DNA of 64,000 bases, taken from the NCBI GenBank assembly GCA_963930775.1, contig OZ005696.1, positions 8,424,980-8,488,979 on the forward strand, read 5' to 3'. The notes under the pieces were generated by a model that was given only the letters and a program-made list of their open reading frames with translations, was not told where the DNA came from and searched no databases. Below are positions 6,552-53,100 of the stretch, piece after piece. How positions within the stretch are numbered: position 1 is the first letter of the stretch; every line of letters begins with the position of its first letter. The DNA is from Cliona cf. orientalis. Taxonomy: Eukaryota; Porifera; Demospongiae; Clionaida; Clionaidae. The translations under genes were made by a program, and so were the position numbers.

Positions 6552-24702
<18,151 letters not shown>

Positions 24703-25102: not shown

Positions 25103-27193
25103 TTAAACTGTTTGCTGACGCTTTAATTTCGAACTGAACGAAGTCTGTGGAAGCTGTTTTTGCTGACGTTGCATTTCTCGTCTCTCCCTCGGCGATTTCG
25201 GAGCAAACCTCCTCGGTTTCGGCACAGGCTTCCCGCTAGTGCCCGAGGGGGCTGCCTCACCACTAAGATCCGTCTGGCACCCCTTATCGTTCAATTCAGT
25301 CGTTTGTGCTTCCACTTCGACTATTGTATGTTCCATGGTGATGCCTGGACTGGTGTAAGGAACGTAAGCCGAGTTCAAATGCTGCCCCTCTACTACATCT
25401 TGTGATTCCAAATGTATCTCTGTCTGTGTTAGTGCTTCAGTGGATTCAGCTCTTGTTTGTGGCACAATCGATGCTGTGGTTTGCTTTGATGTTTGCAGTG
25501 GTAGTGCGGGTTGAGAGTTTTCCTGCGTCATGGCTGAGTCTATGGAACTTGAGGATTCTCCTTTGGAGGAGGCATGCAATAGGAATGTTCTCGGGCTATT
25601 TGAAGCTGTATTATCATTGTTATCACCATTACCGTTGTTTACCACAGGGTGATTTTCTTGGCCGTCGTCAGTGGCTTCTAATTGAATTCCTGAATCACCC
25701 AAGCTCGCCATCCCACTCAAGTCCACCTTCTCTTGAAAGATTGTAGCTGTCGTGGTGGGCTCTTCTTCTTCTTCATAAGGTGTTTCTCTGCTCCTTCTCG
25801 GTGACTCATCAGCGGTTATGACACCATTGCAGTTGTTGGTGTTGTGATCAGTACCTATCAGCGCCTCGCGGTGTGAATGAGAGCCTGGTGCAAGTGGTTG
25901 ATTCAACGTGCAAGTGTTATTGTAGCTATCATTGTTGAGCGTGCCTTCTGCCAGTGGGTGCTTTAGTCTGCTACACTCTGTCACTTTCATCTTCTTGCAG
26001 CAGCACATGGCCACGAACATTCGATACATGAATTTCATGACTCCGGACATGTCTGTGATCGAATAGAGCATGATGGTAGCCAGGATGATCTCCGTAGCCC
26101 TGGTCGATATGTGAAGACCTAGCCACGCTGCGGAATTGCCCATTACACCCATATGGGCTAGGCAGTCTTTGAAGATGAACAGACACACCATAATGATGTT
26201 TCCGAAAGTGAGTAGAGAGTAAAGGCATGCCATGAATACCGTCACGTAGGTGATGATGGCAATTTTTCGTGCCGTCCTTCGGTTGTGTTTGTGGTGTCTC
26301 TGGTACTCCTGGGCAGCAAAGTCGTTTTGCGTGGCCAACTCCTCAGCTGATCTGGCCATGCCAGAAGCCGACATGCGAACTGTGTTCCTCTCTCTCTTTC
26401 TCAGCTGGTGCATGAGGCGGCCCCCAGCTATTAGATAAGTGATCAACACGGCTAGACCCCACAGTGCAAATATAATTTCGCAGATAATGATTGAGAAGAA
26501 ACCTGGGTACTCTGTAAAGTAGCTCAACACCTCTGCCCCGATGGCAATTACGTAAGGTGTCACCACAATGGGTATGACAAATCTCCACTTGTGGTACCAC
26601 TGCTTGCCAGGATTTGCTTTGGCTATTTTAAGCAGCGTGAACACCATTAGGGTGTAGCTAGCTACAAGGCTGGGGAATCCAAAGGAGCCCAGGATACGTG
26701 TTATAATAATCCATTGACGGAAACTGTCCGATATGAATCCGAGGAGATCGTACGGATCCAGAGCAAGCAGCAGCGCTCTGCTGAATCCAAGCACTGCAAT
26801 GGTGGAGTAGACTGCAAAGAATGTTTTGGTTGATAGTCGAACGCAATCTTTCTTGATCAGCATTGCGACGGAAAATAGGCCCAGCATGAGATAAATGGAT
26901 CCCAGCAGTCCTATGTAGACTTTGAATATGCTCCTCCAAACATCATCCCTTTCCGTCCAAATATCTTCGTCGACTGGATTTAGAAACACGAGGACCTCGT
27001 AGGGAAATAGTCCGCTAGTGAGATTCTGCCTGTACTCGTCACAGCTCATTGCGGCTGTCGAGGCACTGGATGGCGTGGAAGTATTATCGGCTAGGTAGGT
27101 AATAATGTTACTGGCTGGCTCGATCATTTCTAGCGATCTCCAGCCGTTTAGTTGAAGATTCCTTCTGCTTTGCTTCCCGCGGCTTTTTATCAT
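25103..27193 (-). CDS. seven-transmembrane protein, PRRT3/4-like (tentative), intronless
   Basis: A single 696-codon exon. After a Ser/Thr-rich extracellular N-terminus (NTS and NLT glycosylation sites) there are seven hydrophobic segments, about residues 91-113, 120-143, 160-192, 205-228, 233-262, 310-340 and 357-378. The loop between TM5 and TM6 is basic (RKRERNTVRM, HHKHNRRTARK). The signatures LGFSRALLLALDP after TM2 and RILGSFGFPSLVASYTL in TM3 are shared with the neighbouring divergent gene, and I believe with the 7TM part of proline-rich transmembrane proteins PRRT3/PRRT4; that family call comes from memory of motifs and is uncertain. The roughly 300-residue cytoplasmic tail is Ser/Thr/Gln-rich and contains PVPKPRRFAPKSPRER, a possible SH3-type site. 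No ligand or signalling route can be inferred. Confidence 0.75.
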   Translation of the reverse strand: MIKSRGKQSRRNLQLNGWRSLEMIEPASNIITYLADNTSTPSSASTAAMSCDEYRQNLTSGLFPYEVLVFLNPVDEDIWTERDDVWRSIFKVYIGLLGSIYLMLGLFSVAMLIKKDCVRLSTKTFFAVYSTIAVLGFSRALLLALDPYDLLGFISDSFRQWIIITRILGSFGFPSLVASYTLMVFTLLKIAKANPGKQWYHKWRFVIPIVVTPYVIAIGAEVLSYFTEYPGFFSIIICEIIFALWGLAVLITYLIAGGRLMHQLRKRERNTVRMSASGMARSAEELATQNDFAAQEYQRHHKHNRRTARKIAIITYVTVFMACLYSLLTFGNIIMVCLFIFKDCLAHMGVMGNSAAWLGLHISTRATEIILATIMLYSITDMSGVMKFMYRMFVAMCCCKKMKVTECSRLKHPLAEGTLNNDSYNNTCTLNQPLAPGSHSHREALIGTDHNTNNCNGVITADESPRRSRETPYEEEEEPTTTATIFQEKVDLSGMASLGDSGIQLEATDDGQENHPVVNNGNGDNNDNTASNSPRTFLLHASSKGESSSSIDSAMTQENSQPALPLQTSKQTTASIVPQTRAESTEALTQTEIHLESQDVVEGQHLNSAYVPYTSPGITMEHTIVEVEAQTTELNDKGCQTDLSGEAAPSGTSGKPVPKPRRFAPKSPRERREMQRQQKQLPQTSFSSKLKRQQTV

Positions 27194-27373
27194 AGCCTAG
27201 GACAGGAAGTAAAATCGAAAGTACTTTAAACCCGTTATAACCGCAGGTTTTGCATTGCGCGCACATGGTGGTGACGACCCTTTACCGTGCTTGTTCTGCT
27301 GTAGTATAGTAGTTAATCGCAATTATATTATACTACTACGATACGCTGTGCTGGTGCTCAAAGTTTATTATGT

Positions 27374-27774: not shown

Positions 27775-28210
27775 TATACTAGACTACACTATTCACTAAA
27801 TCTTAGAAAAATATTATGTACACATTGACTACCTTATATTTAACCCTATTATGCTCTGGCATAACAACACCACCCATTATGCCCGCGAAGCAATGCCAGC
27901 ATATATTGTGCTTATCTCTAGCAAAAAAATTTAATGTCTCCATGAAAAATGTAATCCGACCGCGGATTGCTCGACGACCTTTACCCAATTCAATGCGCAT
28001 GCGCGGCAGCATCGCATTGCATCCCCCGCACTCAGCCCCACCTCTTTTCTTGTTTCATATCTGCTAGAGAGAGGGGAGGAGTATCCACTTAGCCGAGGAT
28101 CGAGGAAGGAAGTAGGCGGCCGCACTCGAGGCGCTCGACTATAGAACTGGGATTTGAGCTACCAGAAACGCGCAGTCTTTACAGTCCAGATATAAAGCAG
28201 CTGAAAAGGG

Positions 28211-29800
28211 ATGACTAGTGGTACGAACGTACAGTCGCCCATGGATTCAGATAACGAAACAACCATGGCCGCGAGCACAGCCGAGCTCTCCACTACAGCT
28301 ACAGCAAATTACAGCTACGGGTACGTTACCAGCAATGGAAACGTCACTGTGCTCTGCGAGCCGTTCGATACAACGAAGGACGTCTACTCGATCTTCTCGC
28401 TGGTCGTGCCCAACGATCGTGACAATTGGGTACAGAGAACGGACGCCTACTGGGCGTTTTTCTACATCATGCTAGTGGTGTTCGGCCTGCTCTACCTGTG
28501 CCTCGCACTCGGCTGTATTCTACTACTGGCCAAGAGACACCTTGCACAACGATTTCGAGTGAGAACGTTCATTGCGATAGACGTTGCACTGATGGTGCTC
28601 GGTTTTTCGCGAGTTCTGTTCTTCATCGTGGACCCGTGGGGCCAGTCTGGCTTCTGCGACCACTACGCCTGCATCGTGGTGTCGAGACTAATAGGTGCGC
28701 TATCGTTTCCCAGCCTGACTGCGAGCTACACCTTGGTTTTGATCACTCTTTGGAGCAGTGCAAGAATGCAGCTGGGAAGAACGTGGATACAGCGCCTGAA
28801 AGTTCTCATTCCGTTGTGCTTCGTTCACTATGGAGTGGCAATTGTATTTGAGATCCTGGGCAGCATTCCAACGGGGAACAGTATGATTGTCATCATCCTA
28901 CTGATCGTGTGCGAGTCCACATTCTCCATCTGGGGGTTTCTAGTCTGCTTCTCGTTCTTAATAAGTGGACACAGATTGCTGAAATCGATCGAAAAGTCCG
29001 TTAGAAGTAGCTCGATCATGTGCAAAGATTCGCCAAACTTGACACGCCACCAACTCATCGAGAAATCGAAATTTCAGAACCAAAACGGACGAAAAAGGAG
29101 CCATTCAACTCTCAAGCTCAAGCACATGCTTCGTGAAAAACACCGAAGAGCCGTTAGAAAAGTATCCCGCATCACATACATCACCGTTCTTCTGGGAATG
29201 GCATACTCTGTGGTCAATTTTGTCAACCTGACTCTCACATGTCTTAGCCTGTTCCACGGTTGTCCGGGCTACCTCGACTATGATACACAGCAACACCCTG
29301 CAGTGTGGTTAACACTGCGTTACATCGCGTTTGTGTTAGAGTTACTACTTGCCGTATTGTTGACCTACTCGATCAGCGACTATCAACCGATATTGAACTT
29401 TTTATGCTGCGGCATGCGGAAGGTTGGCTCGAGACAGCCTTCGCCAACTAGCGGGATGGAGAGCACGACAATCGACAGTGAAAGTACGTCAAGGAATTTT
29501 CCTAGCCGTGGTTCATCACCAGTACCACCTCGAGACGCAAAGGAGGACGAATTGGTCATTTCGAACGCTCCCAACTCGCAGATTAAATCTCCTGCTCTCG
29601 TAAGCTCTCCACCTGCTACCGGTAGTCCAAAGAAGGTTACAATATTCGAGTACAGTACGCCTGCTAGTAGTGCGATGGTTGGTAGAACGTCAACCTCGAC
29701 TACTAATTTAAACAGTCAACCAAAAGTTAAATCGCCGTTAACTGTGAGCTATAGTTTAAATGAATCGTCAACATTTCCCACCGAACATTCAATGTATTAA
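28211..29800 (+). CDS. seven-transmembrane protein, PRRT3/4-like (tentative), intronless paralogue
   Basis: A single 529-codon exon, paralogous to the divergent gene at 25103-27193. Shared features are a glycosylatable Ser/Thr-rich N-terminus, VPNDRDNWVQRTDAYW before TM1 (NPVDEDIWTERDDVWR in the neighbour), LGFSRVLFFIVDPWG, RLIGALSFPSLTASYTL and TYSISD after TM7 (LYSITD in the neighbour). Seven hydrophobic segments are visible. The TM5-TM6 loop is strongly basic (KFQNQNGRKRSHSTLKLKHMLREKHRRAVRK), a pattern common in 7TM receptors. The tail is shorter than in the paralogue and contains PSRGSSPVPPRDAK. Absence of introns in both copies points to duplication of an already intronless gene. The first in-frame ATG was used; a later one at MDSDNETTM is possible. 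Confidence 0.75.
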   Translation: MTSGTNVQSPMDSDNETTMAASTAELSTTATANYSYGYVTSNGNVTVLCEPFDTTKDVYSIFSLVVPNDRDNWVQRTDAYWAFFYIMLVVFGLLYLCLALGCILLLAKRHLAQRFRVRTFIAIDVALMVLGFSRVLFFIVDPWGQSGFCDHYACIVVSRLIGALSFPSLTASYTLVLITLWSSARMQLGRTWIQRLKVLIPLCFVHYGVAIVFEILGSIPTGNSMIVIILLIVCESTFSIWGFLVCFSFLISGHRLLKSIEKSVRSSSIMCKDSPNLTRHQLIEKSKFQNQNGRKRSHSTLKLKHMLREKHRRAVRKVSRITYITVLLGMAYSVVNFVNLTLTCLSLFHGCPGYLDYDTQQHPAVWLTLRYIAFVLELLLAVLLTYSISDYQPILNFLCCGMRKVGSRQPSPTSGMESTTIDSESTSRNFPSRGSSPVPPRDAKEDELVISNAPNSQIKSPALVSSPPATGSPKKVTIFEYSTPASSAMVGRTSTSTTNLNSQPKVKSPLTVSYSLNESSTFPTEHSMY

Positions 29801-42600: not shown

Positions 42601-43125
42601 TGTTTATGGGAGAGAGTTATGTGAATCTGTCTAAGTGGGCTTCTGCAGATGATGTGTTGTTAATAGAATTTCATTATTAGAGTAAATCATTATACATTCC
42701 GTGAGAATCATAAATGCACACAGGGATTGTAATAATTAATATTATGATGATGATTTAATTGGCAGGTACATGGTACACTCTATTTTATTGCATGCAGGAA
42801 AACACGTCTCAGTACTGACTGGAGGGGGGCATGCACATACACATACCTGACGTAGTACACCCTGTCTTTGTGTAGTCTGAAGCAGTAATTGCCATCTGGT
42901 CGGTCCACCAACAGTTTTACATTCTCTCCAATGCTGCATTAATAGGAAAGAAAAGTGCAAGAAAATTAACAGAAGTAGGGGGTCAAAGTGCAAATCCAAA
43001 GTATATCTAATTTTCTCGGTATCAGACCTCCATAGACAAGACACACTGCGTGGATGTTTTTTTACTCACTATTTGGCGAGCTTTTCAAACACCGATTTCG
43101 TTTCTTCATCAGTGAGAGGCCTCAT
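33644..43125 (-). CDS. NIP7: 60S ribosome subunit biogenesis protein NIP7
   Basis: Five exons on the minus strand: 43125-43070, 42933-42847, 42385-42247, 40459-40319 and 33760-33644; 179 residues, all phases consistent. The translation follows human NIP7 closely: [119 protein letters not shown], then [13 protein letters not shown] ... [16 protein letters not shown]. The second half is the PUA RNA-binding domain. NIP7 acts in the nucleolus in pre-rRNA processing and 60S subunit assembly. The length (180 in human) and the intact motifs indicate a functional gene. Intron 4 is about 6.6 kb and full of repeats. Divergent from the SVBP-domain gene. Confidence 0.95.
34592..34718 (+). repeat. GA-rich low-complexity tract
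   Basis: GGGAGGGAGG runs followed by imperfect GAGAGG repeats. Spurious Arg/Glu/Gly frames only. Confidence 0.85.
35975..36064. mobile_element. short palindromic element (TAGCCTCGTCCCC family)
   Basis: Left end TAGCCTCATCCCCAG, right end GAGTGGCCTGGGAACGAGGC-TA. Carries an internal ATTGAAAACATGGG block shared with other copies. About 90 bp, flanked by TA. Confidence 0.6.
37811..37847 (+). repeat. G-tract array with G-quadruplex potential
   Basis: Five runs of six Gs separated by single or double A on the plus strand, the template strand of NIP7. Matches the simple G-quadruplex rule. Confidence 0.75.
38506..38572. mobile_element. short palindromic element (TAGCCTCGTCCCC family), best copy
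   Basis: TA-GCCTCGTCCCTAGGCCACTC on the left and GAGTGGCCTGGGGACGAGGC-TA on the right give about 20-bp arms with one mismatch, flanked by TA. Total 67 bp. Confidence 0.7.
39690..40007. mobile_element. MITE with about 60-bp TIRs and TA duplication
   Basis: TA-GTCTCGTGCCCAGCCCC... on the left mirrors ...GGGGCTGGGCACGAGAC-TA on the right. The arms continue inward through the ACGCGCGAGAAAGGGTCTGG and TCAAAAGGGTCGCAC blocks. About 318 bp, non-coding. The TA duplication points to a Tc1/mariner-type mover. Confidence 0.75.
40611..40782. mobile_element. MITE with GGGCGCTTACC repeats (NIP7 intron 3)
   Basis: TA-GTGTCCCAGGTAAGCGCCCAT on the left; on the right CATGGGCGCTTACCCGGG and TGTCTGGGATAC-TA. 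A third copy of GGGCGCTTACC lies in the interior. About 170 bp, TA-flanked. Confidence 0.65.
41540..42215 (+). repeat. diverged tandem duplication of about 350 bp (NIP7 intron 3)
   Basis: Two consecutive units share ordered blocks: TCTATTTTGATGATACCACC / TCTACTTTGATGATATGACC, CTCCAAAAGTTAGCACG / CTTCAAAAGTCAATACG, GTGTCTCATCAATTGGCCTT / GTGTCTCGTCCAATTAGCCT and GACCTTTTAACCCC / GACCTTTTGACCTT. Divergence is substantial, so the duplication is old. Confidence 0.65.
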
Positions 43126-43369
43126 ACCGGTCCGATCGGCAGATCCTTCTATTTCGCCACGTGGTCAATATTATATCCACTGTTTATTGATTTTCCCATT
43201 CTCGGTTCTGCACGTGGTATTGGAACGCGACCCTGCATGCAGACGTGGGTGGGCGGGGCTGACCTGCATTGCCATAGCTACCCTGCATTCATGGGATGCA
43301 TGCTACAAGCAGCTCAAGCACCCCTGCATGCAAGCTTGACCGAGATCTGATGAATAGTGCCAAAGAAAC
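43126..43369. promoter_or_regulatory. bidirectional promoter region NIP7 / SVBP-domain gene
   Basis: 244 bp between divergent start codons, relatively GC-rich for the window (CACGTGG twice, GGGTGGGCGGGGC). No TATA box seen. Confidence 0.5.
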
Positions 43370-45039
43370 ATGACAGCTTTCGATTCTCCGCTGCTGATCT
43401 CCAAACCAGTATGCCTCCACACCCGCCCCACTGCCAACCGATCCTTCAGCTATAGCGAGCAACGGCTGGTAAATACACTGCTGGAAAGAAGACGGCGGAA
43501 GTATCTAAAATTAGCAGACAGCGGAAAGAATGAACAAAGTAATGAGCTCGAGCGCAAGGGAGATCGAAGTGAAATCGTTAGTAATCTAAGAGTGGACGAG
43601 TCCAGCGCTGGCAGCAGCACGGAAATGCAGCCCAGGCGACGTCTGTCACCCGCTGTTTATGAAACACGTTTTCGTCACGCCAGCATCGAACTAGTGTCGG
43701 AAGTTATGCTACCAACAAAGACGAGAACAAGAGCTAAGAATCTCAGAAGTAAGCTTGAACATATTTGAAGTAGGGATGCATTCAACAAGAATTATCACGT
43801 ACAATCACCCTATAGGCTATAGCATGCTTCTGCACACTACATCTGCTCATGCATGAGATCTTTATTTTTCTGCTGTGTATTAATTTTAATATTATAGGTC
43901 AGTCCTTTCACAATGATCTGGAGACACACTACTATAAAGAATCCAGTGTCCTAAATAAACTTGGTAAGCAATAAGCACATGCAATCAGGGTATGATTAAT
44001 TTAACGTATTCTGCTTTTTAGACTGTTCTGAGTTAGCTGATCATGTAGTTCATCGTGCCAAAGTCCGATTAAAGAAAAGACAACGAAGAAACTTACCTTC
44101 TTTGAAAACAAACTCCCCTGGCTTGATACCAGCTAGTTCCTCACCGCCCTCCTCAAGTCCGTCAAAACCTAAAACTACAACCACGTTAAAGCAACGAGCA
44201 AAATTTAATAATGAAGTTCACCAAAGCAACCTTAAAGCACAGGCTGCTCTATTCTCAAAGAGAACAGATGTCGTTTCAAGATCAACAACAATTAGCAGCT
44301 TGGGGCGACAATTGGATTTGATGGAGGGTGTCAATTCCTCGAGTTCCAGTAGCCCAATAATGACCAGGAGCCTCAAAGTCGTGTACTGGTCAGATAGACA
44401 GTCGGCGACTCCGAAGGATACTGGCATCCCAAATGTGCCCCCAGTCACCCCTAACACTCGTAAGCTGTAACTTTAATTATTATTGGCAGCTAGTACATAT
44501 TATTAACATTGGCAGAGCAGTGTAATAAAATGGATGTTGAATACCAACACGTAGCCTTGATGTTGTATGGTCTCAATAGCTATTTCAATTGGCATTTCTA
44601 TTGTTCCAGCCCATTCTCAATGTTTCAAGTTCGTTCCATCAATGTCAGATGTAAAAAGTCAGCGTCAGTTAAGAAATCGACTGCAAGTTATTATAGGTAC
44701 ATTATCATAATAAAAATTATAATCCAGGCCCATCCTCCCAATATTAATATCACTCCTTTTATGTCTTTAAAATTAATATAGCATCAAAGCTAAAACAGAA
44801 ATCAGAGCTGCTGAATGATGAAGTTAGAAGTAAGGAAGAGGAAAAGAGAAGACGCAGGGAAGCCATAGCCAGGCTAAAAGCACAGCAAAGGTCAGAGGTG
44901 AGGATTGTAATAATAATATTATGATATGATCTGATAGATTGACTTATGACTATGCTTGGATTAGATCTATGCACTTAATAAGTTCATGGCTGAATTCGAA
45001 GAACAGAAGTTTCAAGCTTTCTTATCAGGAAAAGTGTAG
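43370..45039 (+). CDS. coiled-coil protein with C-terminal SVBP-like domain
   Basis: Five exons in phase: 43370-43748, 43898-43963, 44022-44459, 44782-44897, 44965-45039; 357 residues. The first 300 residues are basic and Ser/Thr-rich (SYSEQRLVNTLLERRRRKYLKLA, HRAKVRLKKRQRRN, KQRAKFNNEVHQSNLKAQAALFSKR) and I do not recognise them. The end, EEEKRRRREAIARLKAQQRS then EIYALNKFMAEFEEQKFQAFLSGKV, matches the core of small vasohibin-binding protein (human [30 protein letters not shown]). SVBP is the chaperone and cofactor of vasohibins, tubulin tyrosine carboxypeptidases, but is only 66 residues in vertebrates. The exon 3-4 join uses donor GTAAGC at 44460; unspliced, exon 3 would stop three codons on. 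Exon 4 has no in-frame ATG, so the domain needs upstream exons. The 3' end is 73 bp from that of CDK10. Confidence 0.75.
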
Positions 45040-45112
45040 CTCTTCAACAGTTATCAATTTTCAGATGCCAAATAATAATCATTTATCTATTTTCTATGAA
45101 TCACAATTTTTA

Positions 45113-46932
45113 TCAGTAGTGATACCGCTTTTGTTTCTTGGCGGAATGTTTCAGTTCCTCAGTGTCATCCATCTCCTTGGGCATCTTCCTGTGCACTTGT
45201 GGTTTAGAGTTTCTGAGGTGGGGGTAAGTTGGCATCATCTCTGGCTCGATCGGGTGAGGCTTTTCTCGGAAATAGGTGCTCTTTCTCGCCCGCCTCGCGC
45301 TGATCCTCTTGTTGGGATCGTAGGTCAACATGTCATTCACAAGCTGGCTACCGGCTTCACTGAGCCAATGGAATTTCTGCTTCAAATTGTTGTACGGTTG
45401 GTTCTTCAGTGCCAGCTCTTTGACCAACGGCAGCGAGGAGAACCCTGGCCAAATTGACTCGTTAGGAGAGCCGAGAAGGTTCACAATCAATTCGATCTGA
45501 TTGGCCTCTGATTTTCCCGGCAGTAGTGGCTTATTGTTCAACATTTCACAAAATATGCACCCCACTGCCCACATGTCCAGTGCTGAGCTGTAAGTAGTCC
45601 CACCGAAGAGCAGTTCAGGTCCTCGATACCAAAGAGTGACGACCTTTGGCGTGAGAGGTCGTGGGGGGATGCCTAATGTTCGACTGAGACCAAAATCAGC
45701 GATCTTGAGACAACCCTTGTCCGTTAGGAGCAGGTTAGAGACCTTCAAGTCACGATGAATGATGTAGTTCTTGTGTAAATATGCAACACCATCCAGTAAT
45801 TGAATCATGATGCACTTCACCTATGTTCAAGGAAAGTAAGAAACAGGTAAAGGTCGTCAAGTTCGTAAGTGGGACAGGTAAAGGTCGTTAAGTTTATAAG
45901 TGCAAACTACCATAGTATAAGCATGACATTGCACATAAAAATTTTTTGGCCACAAGGGATTTGTACCTGTGATTCGGAAAAGGGTGTTTTTAGATTATCA
46001 ATGAGTGTGGCAAGATCTTGCTCGCAGTAGTTCATGACGAGGAACATGTTGTCCAGTTCCCTGCCGACCACCACCTCCTTCAGCTCAACGATGTTCCTGT
46101 GCCTCAGCTGCATCAGTATACCAACCTCCCTCACACTGCAGATCGGAAGGCCTGTACATGGAGAAATGTTAAAATTCTACAATATAGATAGATAGATATT
46201 TTAATATCACACATAGAATAAAATAGAAACTATGCACAACAATAATCAATTAACCTGAATCTACTCTTGGTATGAAGCCTATCTCTATCTTGTACATAAT
46301 TATGTACTTAGTACAGAGTGTACATGTACTAACATAACTATGCATGCATGTATATTCCATCAGCCTAAGATCCTATGGGATATGATAATTTGTTTAGTTA
46401 ACCGTCCCCTTAATGAGACACAAAATGCTCCTTGGATTTCACTAGAACACAAAAGTGTAGCCTAGAATCACCGACACAGATGCCTACACTGTTAAAATCA
46501 ATTTCTAACTTCCCAGTAGCCTCAATTGTTTGTGTACGTATCGAATCTTTGGTTCCTCACTGGTGAATAATCGGTCTGCTGTAGGCATCAAATTATTCAG
46601 ATGCTCTTGTCAACCGTGACAACATACGTATCAATAGTGTGCAGAAACTTGTCTATTTTATACAGAGATCTGGTACCTTCTTTCTCTCTTTCCATCCTTA
46701 TCTTTTTCAGGGCCACAATGTCCCCGCTCTTCAAATCTTTGGCCCTGTACACTATGCCATAGGTGCCCTCTCCAATGCGGTTCAGTTTCTCAAAGTCTGA
46801 CACACTCCTACACGCACCCAGTATCTCGTGCTGTGGTAGTTTGATCACTTTTCCAGACGCAGGGGACACCACTTGATGCTTGAGGAGGCCTGAGTCTGGC
46901 TTTGCACTGGCTCCACCACCTCCTTCAGCCAT
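45113..46932 (-). CDS. CDK10: cyclin-dependent kinase 10
   Basis: Three exons on the minus strand: 46932-46677, 46151-45967, 45820-45113; 382 residues. Kinase motifs: GEGTYG (54-59), catalytic Lys 76 in VALKK, the CDK10-type cyclin-binding helix LPICSVRE (87-94), [19 protein letters not shown] (Asp 171), DFG (189-191), T-loop KVVTLWYR (Thr 209), then GPE where most kinases have [16 protein letters not shown], and the CDK10-specific NIWPGF-like [21 protein letters not shown] and [21 protein letters not shown]10 pairs with cyclin M and phosphorylates ETS2 in human. The C-terminal tail is basic with a KKQKRYHY end. Head-to-head with the LIM gene (214 bp), tail-to-tail with the SVBP-domain gene. 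Intron 2 is only 146 bp and carries two tandem GGTAAAGGTCGT motifs. Confidence 0.95.
45846..45889 (-). promoter_or_regulatory. two tandem copies of the GACGACCTTTACC motif in CDK10 intron 2
   Basis: On the minus strand the sequence reads AACGACCTTTACCTGTCCC (45889-45871) and TTGACGACCTTTACCTGT (45860-45843), about 31 bp apart, each followed by CCTGT. The flanking AAGTT(C/T)(G/A)TAAGTG is duplicated too. Function unknown. Confidence 0.4.
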
Positions 46933-47146: not shown

Positions 47147-50100
47147 ATGTCAGAAGCCGATTTCGAACGAGAAGCAAATAAGCTTCTGCGAGACCTCGGT
47201 CTCCCCTCCGACACCCTCAACTTCTTTGAGAGTGATTCTGCAAAGACGTCCAACTGGAAATCTACCCTCAAGGCGCCGTCCCCACCCAAAGCTAGGCGCG
47301 TCAGCTCCACTGGAACAACTACGCAATTCCAGAGACGACAGAGAGAGCGAGCAGCCACGGCCACAGCCAACGGCGCCCCCAGTTCAGCGATTAAACGACC
47401 AGATAGAAGTAGCATTCCGTTTAGAAATCCACCTCTCAGCCAAGGAGAAACCACTAGCGGTACAAACGCGAACCGAGCCTCGGCCTCGGCAAAGAATCGT
47501 TTTTCTACCCCGTCTGGTCCCAGCTCGATCCCCGTTAGCAGTAGCAGCAACGTCAGAACAAAATCCCAGTCCCCACCGCCACAAGGCTTGCCCGATCAAC
47601 CACCAGCATCATCTGGAGCGCCGCAAGCTTCTTCAACTCCGACCAAGAGGCAAGTACACCGTCCAGCACCTCGAGCACCTCCCTCTGGCTATCAGTCAGC
47701 CAAGTCTAGGAGGGCGTCTACTCCTAGCAGGACCACCCGAAGCGTGTCTCCCACAGGCGGGCCAGCTCAAAAAAGCTCAGCTGCCACTTCTACTACGAGT
47801 CAGAGTTTGAGTCAAGGCAGTGGGATTCCTGTCTTCAATCGTCGCCTCTCCCCCAGTGCAGCTGCCCCCAGCACTATTAGTAGTTCTACTAATCCTGGAG
47901 GAACTGCAAATAGCAACAAGCCTTCCCACTCAGTGCAGAAACCTGCTACAAAGACAACAGTATCTAGTACATCTGCAAATCGACCTGCACCACAAGTAGT
48001 CAGTGCAGCCGCTGTAAATACCTCAATTAACACGAAAAGCTCTACTCCAAGTGTTAATGGCAGTGCAGCTGTAAACGGCGAGGTACACGCTTATGAGTCG
48101 ATCGATGGAAATCTTGTTTCTAGATCTAGGAAGAAATCCGCTTCTCCACCAGTGAAACAGTCCATGCTGAAGAAGCCAAGCTCCAACCTGAATCCACTGA
48201 AATATTCAGAAGTCAACCGCCGGCTTTCTGTTCCCGAAAAATCCCACGACGGACGTACACCCGAGTCTCAAAAAGCCACCAATGATAAGGGTGGCAGCAA
48301 AGCTGATCACAAGCAGCTGCTCCAGCTGCTCTCTGTGTCAACAAAGTCATCCACAGCTCAAAACAGTAAACAGACACCAAAACCCACTACTGATACCAAG
48401 GCAGCTGCTGCTACTAGTACCAGTACCAGTACCAGCACTAGTACTGGCTCCAAACCGGTTCGCCCTGAGCGCACTTCAGTACTCTCCTACTCACGGATCC
48501 CAATATCATCATCGACATCATCATCATCATCCAAGACTGTCCCTCCCACCTCCCAGTCTAGCAGTGAGGCTAAGAGTGCTAGTGCTGCAGCTGCTTCTTC
48601 TACCACTACTACTACTACCACTACTACTACTGGGGCAGGGGGTAGCAGCAGGATCCCTCAGCCTCAGTCTGGTGGTGGTGGTGGCTTCGCTCGAGGTGGT
48701 GGCACGTGGGCTAGCAGTAGTACTAAGACCCGCCAACAGCACCAGCAGCACCAGCAGCAGAAACAACTGAAGCAGGAACAGCAGCCCAAGGTGCAAGAGA
48801 AGCCTCAGGAGAAACCACTTGGCGAAGCTGGAGGTGGCAATAGTAGAAGTATCATGACATACGACAGCCTCAGTCCAAGCGATTTGGATGCGATACTGAA
48901 ACAAGACGACTCCTTTTTGCTGAAAGAAAATGACCGACTGCCGCAAAAGGCGGATGCCAACGTTTCTGGAGTCTACGATCGACTGACTCCCAAGGAGATC
49001 ATGATGATCCTGAAGGACGAGGACATATCAAAGGATAAAGATCGAGGAGAAAAGCCAGCGGAACTTAAGCAGAATGGTGCAGCAGCAGTGGCCTCCTCTA
49101 CCGATCCTATGGAGCACCTGTATGCCAGAGTGATTAAGCGCCGCAGGCATTCTGACGGCCAAGGAGCTCCTGAAAACCGTCAATCTCTTACCTCACCAAT
49201 CAGTGATCCCGGAACCGCCAACCAAACAACAAAGAAGGGAAAGAGACACTCAGTGGATGAAACGGTTCGTTCAGATTCTCGAGGTAGCTCCAATCCTCCC
49301 AGCCGAAGCAGCTCGCGTGAGTTAAGATCATCGGAAAAGTTGTTGAACGGAAGTGTTCAACAACAAAACGGTCGCTCGGTTTCTTCTTCGGGATCAACAG
49401 CTACCGGTACCACTGCTACTGTGAGTTCTCCCGAGTCCCTCACGGATAGACAGACTCCCGATAGCGAAGAGCGAAGGTCGAGAATTAGCGTCAGCTGGCC
49501 GAAACAATCTCTGGATGCCACTAACACCAACACAATGAGCGCCGTGGCTACTACAACAGTGCAGGCCCTTCAGACCTTAGTAGAGGTCATGACCCCGCAG
49601 CCTTCCCCACTGAAAAGCGACGGGAAGAAGTTCAACTACGAAGATGAATCGTCGGGCACAACGCCGTGGTACCTCTTGGACACGGAGGAGAATGAGTCTA
49701 CGGGATCGAGCCATCCCCTCTCTCCGGACCTCTCGAGTGAGCCGTTGTCGACGATGACGATGACGACGACAAGCCCCTTGAGTCTGCAACAGGCAGGGAC
49801 GATAGTCAATGGAGAAGCAAAGATCGTTGGTAAGACGGCAGGAAGGAGGTATAGTGATACTGCATCTAAGCCACAAGTGGAGCCTGTAGCACATACACAA
49901 CAGAGTTCATCCAGTAGCAAAGGGAGTGCTTCTGGAGCATCGAATAGGGTGTCGGAAAGGAGGAGAAGTTCGGGACAGATGAATGATTCGTCCAGAAAGT
50001 CGAGCAGCGCTTCGAATCCTCCATCTGCTGATTCTCCCTCCAGTAGGAAAACGAGCACATCTGATCGAGCGAGTCAGTCGAGTCACGGAAACCATGGCAA

Positions 50101-53100
50101 CCACTTGACGGTAAAGGACCAACCAAATTGGCCGGGTCAGAAACGAAAGATCAGTCCAGATCCCCCTCCACCGATATCTCGGACACTGAGTTCACCCGAG
50201 CACGACTATGCTATTCTGGACCCAGAATTCAACGAGGAGTTCTTTGGTAAGTCAATTTATTCACAATTCTTAATTTGGCACACTAGTTTAGTTATTGCAG
50301 CAATTAGCCCAGCGTAATACTGTAGCTTGCTTATTTAAAAAATAGAGCATACTAGTAAATTGCTAATGCCCATTAGCGCTCAAAATTTTGCTCAGGGGAA
50401 TATTCAAGTGTTGAGAGCCAGCCTTGGTATGCAAGTCCTCTTGAGCCGTTATTCCCCTTGGGGGCTAGAGAACTTTTGGAGAATGCAAATTTGTCAACAA
50501 ATTATCTTGCAATGTAAATCATCATCGATAGCTGTCGAAGGTGCTGAGAGAGAGAGAGAGAGAGAGGGAGAGAGAGGGAGGGAGGGAGAGATGGGAGTAT
50601 CAACTTGCTGATCGATGTAACAGCTATAGCCAGCCACCACTCAGTTGTTACAACTATAGAAAGGAGTGATAGAAGTGTGGAGTGTCAATTTGCTGATCGA
50701 TGTAACAGTTATAGCCGGCCACTCAGTTGTTACAACTATAGAAAGGAGTGATAGAAGTGTGGACATAGGGTGTGTGGGGTTGGCTAGACTATTAAGGTCA
50801 TCGAAACATCTCTCGGGGTGCTGTATATACATGTATACCTAGTTCGGGATACATTCTCTGCCCATATAACAACTTGCGTCACGTAAAGTACTGCTAAAGC
50901 GAACAGCTGCAACATTGTATCACCGTGCAGAGGGACTTCTCCTTCAGGAGTCTGTAAGTAGAAGTTTATGTAGCTGCCGGGAGGAAAGGTGATAGTAAGG
51001 TTGAGTTTGTATAGGTGAAAAGGAATATGATTTCAAGTGTATAACAATCGATCGTTTCATTGGTAGAGCAGGTGGCTATGGTCTCAAGAGTTTGTGAACG
51101 ATCAAACTCAATTTAGATTTAAGTGGATTTAACAGGAGACACATTCCAGGCATATTGTTGACCGCAAACTGAGAATGTCTGTGAACGTATTTCGGGCTCT
51201 CCTTCCATTCCCAAAGTGTGACCCATAGCTTCAGTATGTATGATTCTCCATTATCAGCAAATTGAGGAGCTGTAGCCATCGCCTATAGTCCCCTTGGGAA
51301 CTTCCTGTTTAAACCGTGTCCAGTGAATTTAATATTGGAAGGGCTGTGTTGTACTCAAAATATTTCTTGTTTGCTGACTATGACTTTCCTTTTGAAGATT
51401 AATATTTTTAACCTAATAATATTGGATCTCTTGATTTTCTGGCAGTCCTGTATGATGACCTCAGAACTATTCCTCCATAATTAAATTTTATATTTATTTG
51501 ATTACTTCGTATTATTGTCTGGTATTGTTTTTGTTTTGTTTCATGGTTCTCTCCCCCACTCCCCACCTCTATCTACATATCTGTACCTATACACTACTGA
51601 AATCTACTACTGCCAAACTCAATCCAATAAACAAGGCCAATATTGAGCCCCCTAGTTGGTGATTATTGAGTCTTGCTGCGCACAACCTTCAGACATGGTA
51701 TTTTGTTTTGCCGAGGTGCAGTTGGGTGACTGATATGACCAAGTTTGGGTTGAACTTTTGGCTTGGTTCTTAGACTAGTGGTGTATTTTTGCTGACTTTG
51801 CAGGCTACTGTGCTCGCTGTAGTAAGCCGGTGATAGGCGTGGAGACCGGTTGCCTTGCTCTGGATCAAGTCTACCACCTCGGCTGCTTCACCTGCTCCAA
51901 GTGCCGTAAGTGGTGCTCTCTTTCTCCTCTCTCTCTCTCTTTCTTTCTCTCGTTCACTTTCATTTTCACATGCTTGTTTGCAAGCACAGAGCTTGGGATA
52001 TGTTATTGTGAGGATTGCTAGCCATTATACCTGGCAGTGATAAACACACTGATTGCAACATCCTACATATCCTACCTGCATTATGCTAACTTTCCCACAC
52101 AGTGTATAGACAAAAACATCAGGAAATACCTCTCCTTGCCCAGTCAGTTTCCCCACACCACATAGCCAATAGACCGTGTGTTTACACAGCTACAAGTGTT
52201 GGCCTGGAGAATTATCACATTGCATCATTATGCCTACACACTGACTGCCTTTGAGTACTGGCCCAGCTATACCTTCACCTTCTTGAAGTGGCAATTAATA
52301 TTGCCTTAATTTAGTGCATAATGTCCCAATTTAAAAGAAGAGTTCCAAATAATTACTGCAATAATACCATAGCTATTCTCTTAGAGGGACTCCATGTGGA
52401 CAAAAAAATCTCTCGTTTCCTTCCCTCCACCCACACCTGGCTGGAGCTGGAGCTAGAGTTGGGGCACTCTATGCATACCAGTAATAAGAGCATCAATAAG
52501 CTGTGACACCTGATCAGCTCCTTACAGGGAGTGTAGCTCATAGAGGAGGCATGCCACGGTCATTGGATCGAAGCCTAACTTGGTGGTGACCACTCAGTCT
52601 AAGTGTCACCGATTCCACAATAATATAGTCCTTTTTATCTAAGCTCTTTAGATGACTAGATTGTCTCTCAGATCATCTTTAGCAAGTGGGGAAGTTATTT
52701 ATTGCCTATAGTAATATGTACAGCATACTGTGCTGCATGTATGTATTAGCCGAGGTTGATATTAATTTTGGTTGGAAATTGATACGCACGTTGTAAAGTT
52801 GCTTGGCACTGAAGCTTAATTAGTGTCCATGATATGTTAGGCACGAGTGAGGTAATTATGTAATATTATGATGCACGTGTATAATATGTGACCTGCTATG
52901 AGAAAAGGGACCATTGCAGACAATGAATTTTTATGCCCAATTACATGTAGCTTACTTTCAACAAAATTATGTAGCTGGTAGTAAGTAATTACAGCCTATG
53001 TTTGTCTAGGCACAAACAGAGCGGATTAGCTGCATGAACGGTACATCACTACATTCATACAACAAAAAAAAACTCCCAAATGATCCCTTTTCTCATAGCT

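Follow-up and report, generated by a model that had tools for sequence, protein, structure and literature searches.

Mammalian vasohibins depend on SVBP, a tiny cofactor, for their stability and for full activity. Here we describe the SVBP locus of a demosponge, Cliona cf. orientalis, in a window of 64,000 nt (the whole stretch of DNA that was analysed: OZ005696.1, positions 8,424,980-8,488,979), the numbering of which is used for all positions in and around the locus. On the plus strand, between 43370 and 45039, a sequence-only reading had joined five exons into a protein of 357 residues ending in an SVBP-like domain. When checked, this chain displays GT/AG at every border and no stop across its joins over 357 codons, and its introns are all in phase 1, save the last one, which is in phase 0. 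The locus comprises the following features:

43126..43369, no strand: putative promoter region shared with the divergent NIP7-like gene; GC 0.52, 12 CpG in 244 bp
43370..43748, plus: exon 1, N-terminal part; ATG at 43370 with A at -3; donor GAA/gtaagc; phase 1 out
43898..43963, plus: exon 2; donor TTG/gtaagc; phase 1 in and out
44022..44459, plus: exon 3, basic and Ser/Pro-rich; donor CTC/gtaagc; phase 1 in and out
44468..44470, plus: in-frame TAA, reached when intron 3 is retained, giving a 297-residue product without SVBP
44524..44529, plus: AATAAA, which may serve as poly(A) signal for a short transcript terminated within intron 3
44610..44696, plus: extra exon of 87 nt, phase 1/1; acceptor ttctattgttccag; donor TAG/gtacat
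44642..44644, plus: ATG, candidate start of a stand-alone SVBP of 81 residues; weak context (T at -3, T at +4)
44782..44897, plus: exon 4, N-terminal half of the SVBP helix, without in-frame ATG
44965..45039, plus: exon 5, SVBP core IYALNKFMAEFEEQKFQAF, then the stop TAG

The extra exon at 44610-44696 had been overlooked. Its inclusion yields 386 codons and its skipping 357, while translation from the ATG at 44642 yields an 81-residue SVBP (starting with MSDVKSQRQLRN...); the locus thus encodes all three products, in which 324, 295 and 19 residues, respectively, are contributed upstream of exon 4. The junction proposed between exons 3 and 4 (44459/44782) is possible in phase, but it is one option among others. 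With the extra exon counted, the introns measure 149, 58, 150, 85 and 67 nt. It had also been argued that the SVBP domain needs upstream exons, exon 4 having no in-frame ATG. Re-reading the frames confirms the latter point, yet the extra exon offers an ATG of its own, so that the lack of one in exon 4 cannot tie exons 1-3 to the SVBP gene, and their membership is unproven. By eye, the tail from ATG 44642 onwards resembles a single unbroken helix rich in Lys, Arg, Glu and Leu, unlike the end of exon 3, which is a proline-rich stretch.

SVBP and its vasohibin partner

At the level of sequence, it is secure that exons 4 and 5 encode an SVBP orthologue; no second one was found in the genome (216,785,154 bases in 149 contigs). 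The Pfam profile of the CCDC23/SVBP family (PF15674; cut-off of 27 bits), scanned against the spliced forms of 62, 81 and 357 residues, scores 40.9 bits with exons 4-5 alone, 39 bits with the 81-residue form and 38.1 bits with the 357-residue form, while a phmmer search of the PDB returns 13 distinct sequences at E-values up to 10, every one of them SVBP (best E-value: 3.7e-6). The SVBP-like C-terminal domain recognized by the earlier reading is thereby upheld. In the PDB alignment, the conserved stretch corresponds to SVBP residues 17-58 and is strongest at 35-49, the core in exons 4-5 showing 14 identities over the 24 positions of residues 35-58. Among the ten vasohibin-contact residues checked (Q35, R36, E38, I39, Y40, A41, L42, N43, V45 and L49, as listed for the VASH1 interface in PMC6937246), eight are identical in the sponge and the remaining two are still hydrophobic (V45F and L49F). 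Genome-wide, both the core peptide and PF15674 have a single match, in the same exon 5, where the profile reaches 20.3 bits, i.e., below its cut-off by itself. Three NCBIfam matches over the tail all fall far below cut-off, and a genome_contigs scan with exons 4-5 gave 210 pattern matches, none of which was confirmed, in a collection not meant for animals.

The genome also holds a cognate vasohibin: a search with PF14822 identified one vasohibin locus, on contig C16, through three exon matches of up to 130 bits. The assembled protein (285 residues) retrieves VASH2 and VASH1 from the PDB (19 distinct sequences, best E-value 6e-80), and it is identical to the best VASH2 chain at 130 of 261 positions (50%). 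In VASH1 numbering, mapped via VASH2 at a constant offset of 11, all ten catalytic or substrate residues are kept (K145, K146, R148, K168, C169, H204, S221, R222, R223 and L226). Of the 18 VASH1 positions at the SVBP interface (PMC6937246), 13 carry the same residue and five differ (V69I, V81I, V91I, I104P and A164C), the mapping being less sure near positions 91-105, where it crosses a gap. Given this conservation of both catalytic and interface residues in the two partners, a vasohibin/SVBP complex very likely exists in the sponge. The introns of the vasohibin gene (about 246, 71, 54 and 84 nt) are similar in size to those of the SVBP locus; the first of them (gene at 1390-2700 of its locus) seems to be of the GC-AG type, with the donor CAG/gcaagt.

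One transcript or two

Whether the SVBP helix is the tail of a longer protein depends on exons 1-3 and on the extra exon. Exon 1 is open over 126 codons and exon 3 over 145 codons, with chances of 2.3e-3 and 4.6e-4, respectively, by base composition, while their other two frames contain 7 and 9 stops in exon 1 and 9 and 12 in exon 3. Using a codon-bias model trained on 1438 codons from three open reading frames (ORFs), the two exons score 0.107 and 0.008, compared with a mean of -0.138 (standard deviation 0.094) for the 99 other stop-free stretches of at least 80 codons in the window. The encoded 295 N-terminal residues are strongly basic (50 K/R for 27 D/E, net charge +23, isoelectric point 10.4) and lie on the disordered side of the charge-hydropathy line. 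Searches with exons 1-3 found nothing above cut-off in Pfam (one match, E-value 5.3), no match in the PDB up to an E-value of 10, and no convincing paralogue genome-wide, since six of the eight matches are the locus itself and two are weak (E-values 0.023 and 0.24); a viral_contigs scan with exon 3 gave five pattern matches, none confirmed, again in a collection not meant for animals. As for short motifs, SxIP-like and RVxF-like sites occur once each in exons 1-3 (0.54 and 0.20 expected, respectively), neither above chance, and S/T-P sites are in mild excess (nine vs. 4.6 expected, P 0.019). Neither the Pfam and PDB searches nor the SxIP-like and RVxF-like sites thus yield positive evidence for the microtubule targeting suggested by the sequence-only reading.

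The acceptor ttctattgttccag at 44610 is the strongest within 44470-44800 and belongs to the top 1.0% of 8197 AG sites, so that an exon is expected upstream of it. The exon that it opens has no stop in the frame that runs from exon 3 to exon 4, and its donor ranks in the top 10.5% of 7759 GT sites. In stretches sampled at random from the window (AT-rich, 322 nt, overlapping), an open cassette that is in phase and matches or exceeds the observed splice scores occurs in 13 of 2074 cases, or in 32 of 2148 with a laxer acceptor; the thresholds having been set on the observed exon itself, 13/2074 flatters the cassette. The plus strand of 43301-45100 contains only three GTRAGY donors, those that close exons 1, 2 and 3, for a background of 0.96 per kb per strand.

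Upstream of ATG 44642, the 171 bp of 44471-44641 are AT-rich (GC 0.35, 2 CpG, vs. GC 0.52 and 12 CpG in the 244 bp before exon 1) and contain five other ATGs, the nearest of which, at 44620, is out of frame. This contrast speaks for one gene, but promoter composition was rejected as a decider, the low CpG content before ATG 44642 being indecisive because the region upstream of the vasohibin gene is CpG-poor as well. Indeed, other upstream regions are mixed: GC 0.54 and an observed/expected CpG ratio of 0.42 for the vasohibin gene, 0.39 and 0.86 for the pair formed by a kinase gene, which we take to be CDK10-like, and an ORF of 1067 codons, and 0.44 and 1.24 for a membrane-protein ORF. In Amphimedon, C and G are reported to increase at and just past start sites (excerpt of PMC4773876).

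Altogether, splice phases, compact introns, the AT-rich gap and the poor start context favour the model in which exons 1-3 and SVBP belong to the same transcript, and this fused transcript is probably the main form, specifying 386 residues, or 357 if 44610-44696 is skipped. The cofactor fused to a basic N-terminal region, as put forward by the sequence-only reading, therefore stands as the better gene model; it is unproven, the 81-residue stand-alone form being encoded too. Several observations weigh against it. The wrong frames of exons 1 and 3 score like the proposed frame in codon bias, a measure thus blind to frame, so that the coding status of these exons rests on their openness, an argument weakened by the fact that 10 and 5 of the 99 other stop-free stretches reach the length of exon 1 and exon 3, respectively. 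The coding bias of 44610-44696 is below average (-0.26 per codon), and its coding status consequently rests on phase, acceptor and continuity. According to a position weight matrix, the donors are mediocre (top 7.6% for exon 3 and top 10.5% for 44610-44696) and exons 4 and 5 have poor acceptors (top 63% and 31%), but this matrix is a vertebrate-type one, the rankings of which are rough in a sponge: at least one of these two acceptors must be real and yet ranks poorly, which indicates that the matrix suits the species badly. Moreover, a TAA begins 9 nt beyond the end of exon 3, with AATAAA 54 nt past it; the ATG at 44642, within 44610-44696, leads to an SVBP of normal size (81 residues); SVBP is a stand-alone protein of 66 residues in human and mouse (PMC6937246; excerpt of PMC6642083); and, since the start Met of human SVBP lies in exon 2 and L49 in exon 3 (excerpt of PMC11709099), the human exon that corresponds to sponge exon 4 apparently includes a Met of its own.

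These observations can be read as two tandem genes, the first ending with exon 3 at TAA 44468-44470 and poly(A) signal 44524, the second producing an 81-residue SVBP from ATG 44642 under its own promoter in the 171-bp gap. Such an arrangement would account for the stop and the AATAAA directly behind exon 3, as well as for an in-frame ATG opening a product of SVBP size, and compact demosponge genomes are known, the median intergenic distance being 587 bp in Amphimedon (excerpt of PMC4773876). Yet it would turn both the phase-matched GTAAGC donor at the end of exon 3 and the strong phase-matched acceptor at 44610 into coincidences, and it would have to accommodate an AT-rich gap, five upstream ATGs and a poor context at the start codon; we consider it unlikely. 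The AATAAA at 44524 was dropped as proof of a gene end, since this motif occurs in 8.8% of 2558 AT-rich stretches of 100 nt. No AWTAAA was found within 300 nt 3' of the SVBP stop, where there is just AATAAT at 45071 and 45074, nor within 300 nt 3' of the vasohibin stop; an AAT-repeat variant of the poly(A) signal has been reported in Amphimedon (excerpt of PMC4432959).

The order of stop, AATAAA (44524), strong acceptor (44610) and ATG (44642) within 171 bp is also the layout of a spliced-leader operon, in which the precursor RNA would be cut after the AATAAA and the SVBP mRNA trans-spliced with a leader at 44610. Trans-spliced leaders are indeed reported on 4% of long reads in the glass sponge Aphrocallistes vastus (excerpt of PMC10282587), but no demosponge spliced leader was found among the literature matches listed, and the out-of-frame ATG at 44620 would come before ATG 44642 in the mRNA, which makes this operon-like pair very improbable. 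Finally, the locus could release in quantity the long fusion, the 297-residue form without SVBP and free 81-residue SVBP, either through alternative promoters or through the processing of intron 3: all three products are encoded, and intron retention is the most frequent type of alternative splicing in Amphimedon (excerpt of PMC4432959), but a mixed output on this scale appears the least probable of the options.

Exon 1 lies head to head with the start of a NIP7-like gene (42780-43164, minus strand), with 244 bp from ATG to ATG; the pre-PUA_NIP7 match is below cut-off (E-value 0.0011) and the start was placed by eye. On the other side, the presumably CDK10-like kinase gene (Pkinase; 45113-46932, minus strand) is convergent with SVBP, its frame ending at 45113, 74 nt beyond the SVBP stop, and it is divergent from a plus-strand, Ser/Thr-rich single-exon ORF of ~1056 codons (47147-50317) without Pfam match at an E-value of 0.01. 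Further away, two divergent single-exon genes (25103-27196, minus strand, and 28205-29800, plus strand) encode multi-pass membrane proteins with long disordered tails, which are alike by eye and also lack any Pfam match at an E-value of 0.01; we presume them to be reminiscent of PRRT3/PRRT4-type proteins. Simple repeats of the GA/CT and CA/TG types (11489-12100, 15447-15876 and 21547-21936) create long stop-free stretches that mimic ORFs, partly on both strands.

A possible mechanism and comparison with known systems

Under the fused model, a single transcription unit would start near 43370, beside the divergent NIP7-like gene, and carry SVBP in its last exons. Like mammalian SVBP, the C-terminal helix would grip helices 1-2 of the sponge vasohibin and maintain the shape of the active site of this enzyme, while the long basic N-terminal part, probably disordered, would extend outwards from the N-terminus of the helix. 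Since the conserved stretch spans the ordered part of SVBP, this extension would remain unattached and is not expected to hinder assembly; being basic, it could raise microtubule affinity or, in a putative targeting role, bring the enzyme elsewhere through other binding. If intron 3 were retained, the protein would stop at 44468 and lack the SVBP tail. A bolder version, in which all sponge SVBP is made as the tail of a basic protein of ~390 residues, vasohibin activation follows the location of that protein and intron 3 retention acts as an off switch, seems doubtful to us. We see no support either way for the suggestion that vertebrate SVBP is a shortened descendant of such a protein. If SVBP did sit inside a longer protein, the cell would have a natural means of choosing where tubulin is detyrosinated, and the finding would be relevant to how the cofactor arose; were the arrangement common to other sponges, SVBP may once have belonged, as a domain, to a larger microtubule protein. 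Even the plain reading of the locus documents a matched SVBP/vasohibin pair in a demosponge.

Among the papers searched, none that names the small vasohibin-binding protein also mentions evolution and sponge, and those that mention vasohibin, detyrosination and sponge together are, by title, not about sponges; a 2016 survey of vasohibins places them in animals from humans to placozoans, and its main text contains neither "sponge" nor "Amphimedon" (excerpt of PMC4866520). Compared with human and mouse SVBP (CCDC23, PF15674, 66 residues), the sponge protein shares the core helix, eight of the ten contact residues and the profile match, but its exon 4 has no start codon and upstream exons add 19, 295 or 324 residues. 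In both human and sponge, a coding-region intron lies somewhere ahead of the codon for residue 49 (human gene: excerpt of PMC11709099). Crystal structures show SVBP as a single helix enclosed by vasohibin helices 1-5, with residues before ~25 unseen (PMC6937246; excerpt of PMC6642083), and in the mammalian complex SVBP makes no contact with the microtubule and is disordered at both ends (excerpt of PMC7449697). With respect to the VASH1/2-SVBP tubulin carboxypeptidase, the sponge has one vasohibin locus in its genome and shares the ten catalytic or substrate residues, whereas a long basic tail on SVBP would be new. Lastly, the trypanosomatid vasohibins TbVASH and LmVASH belong to the same enzyme family but work without SVBP (excerpt of PMC11761321), whereas the sponge genome encodes both partners.
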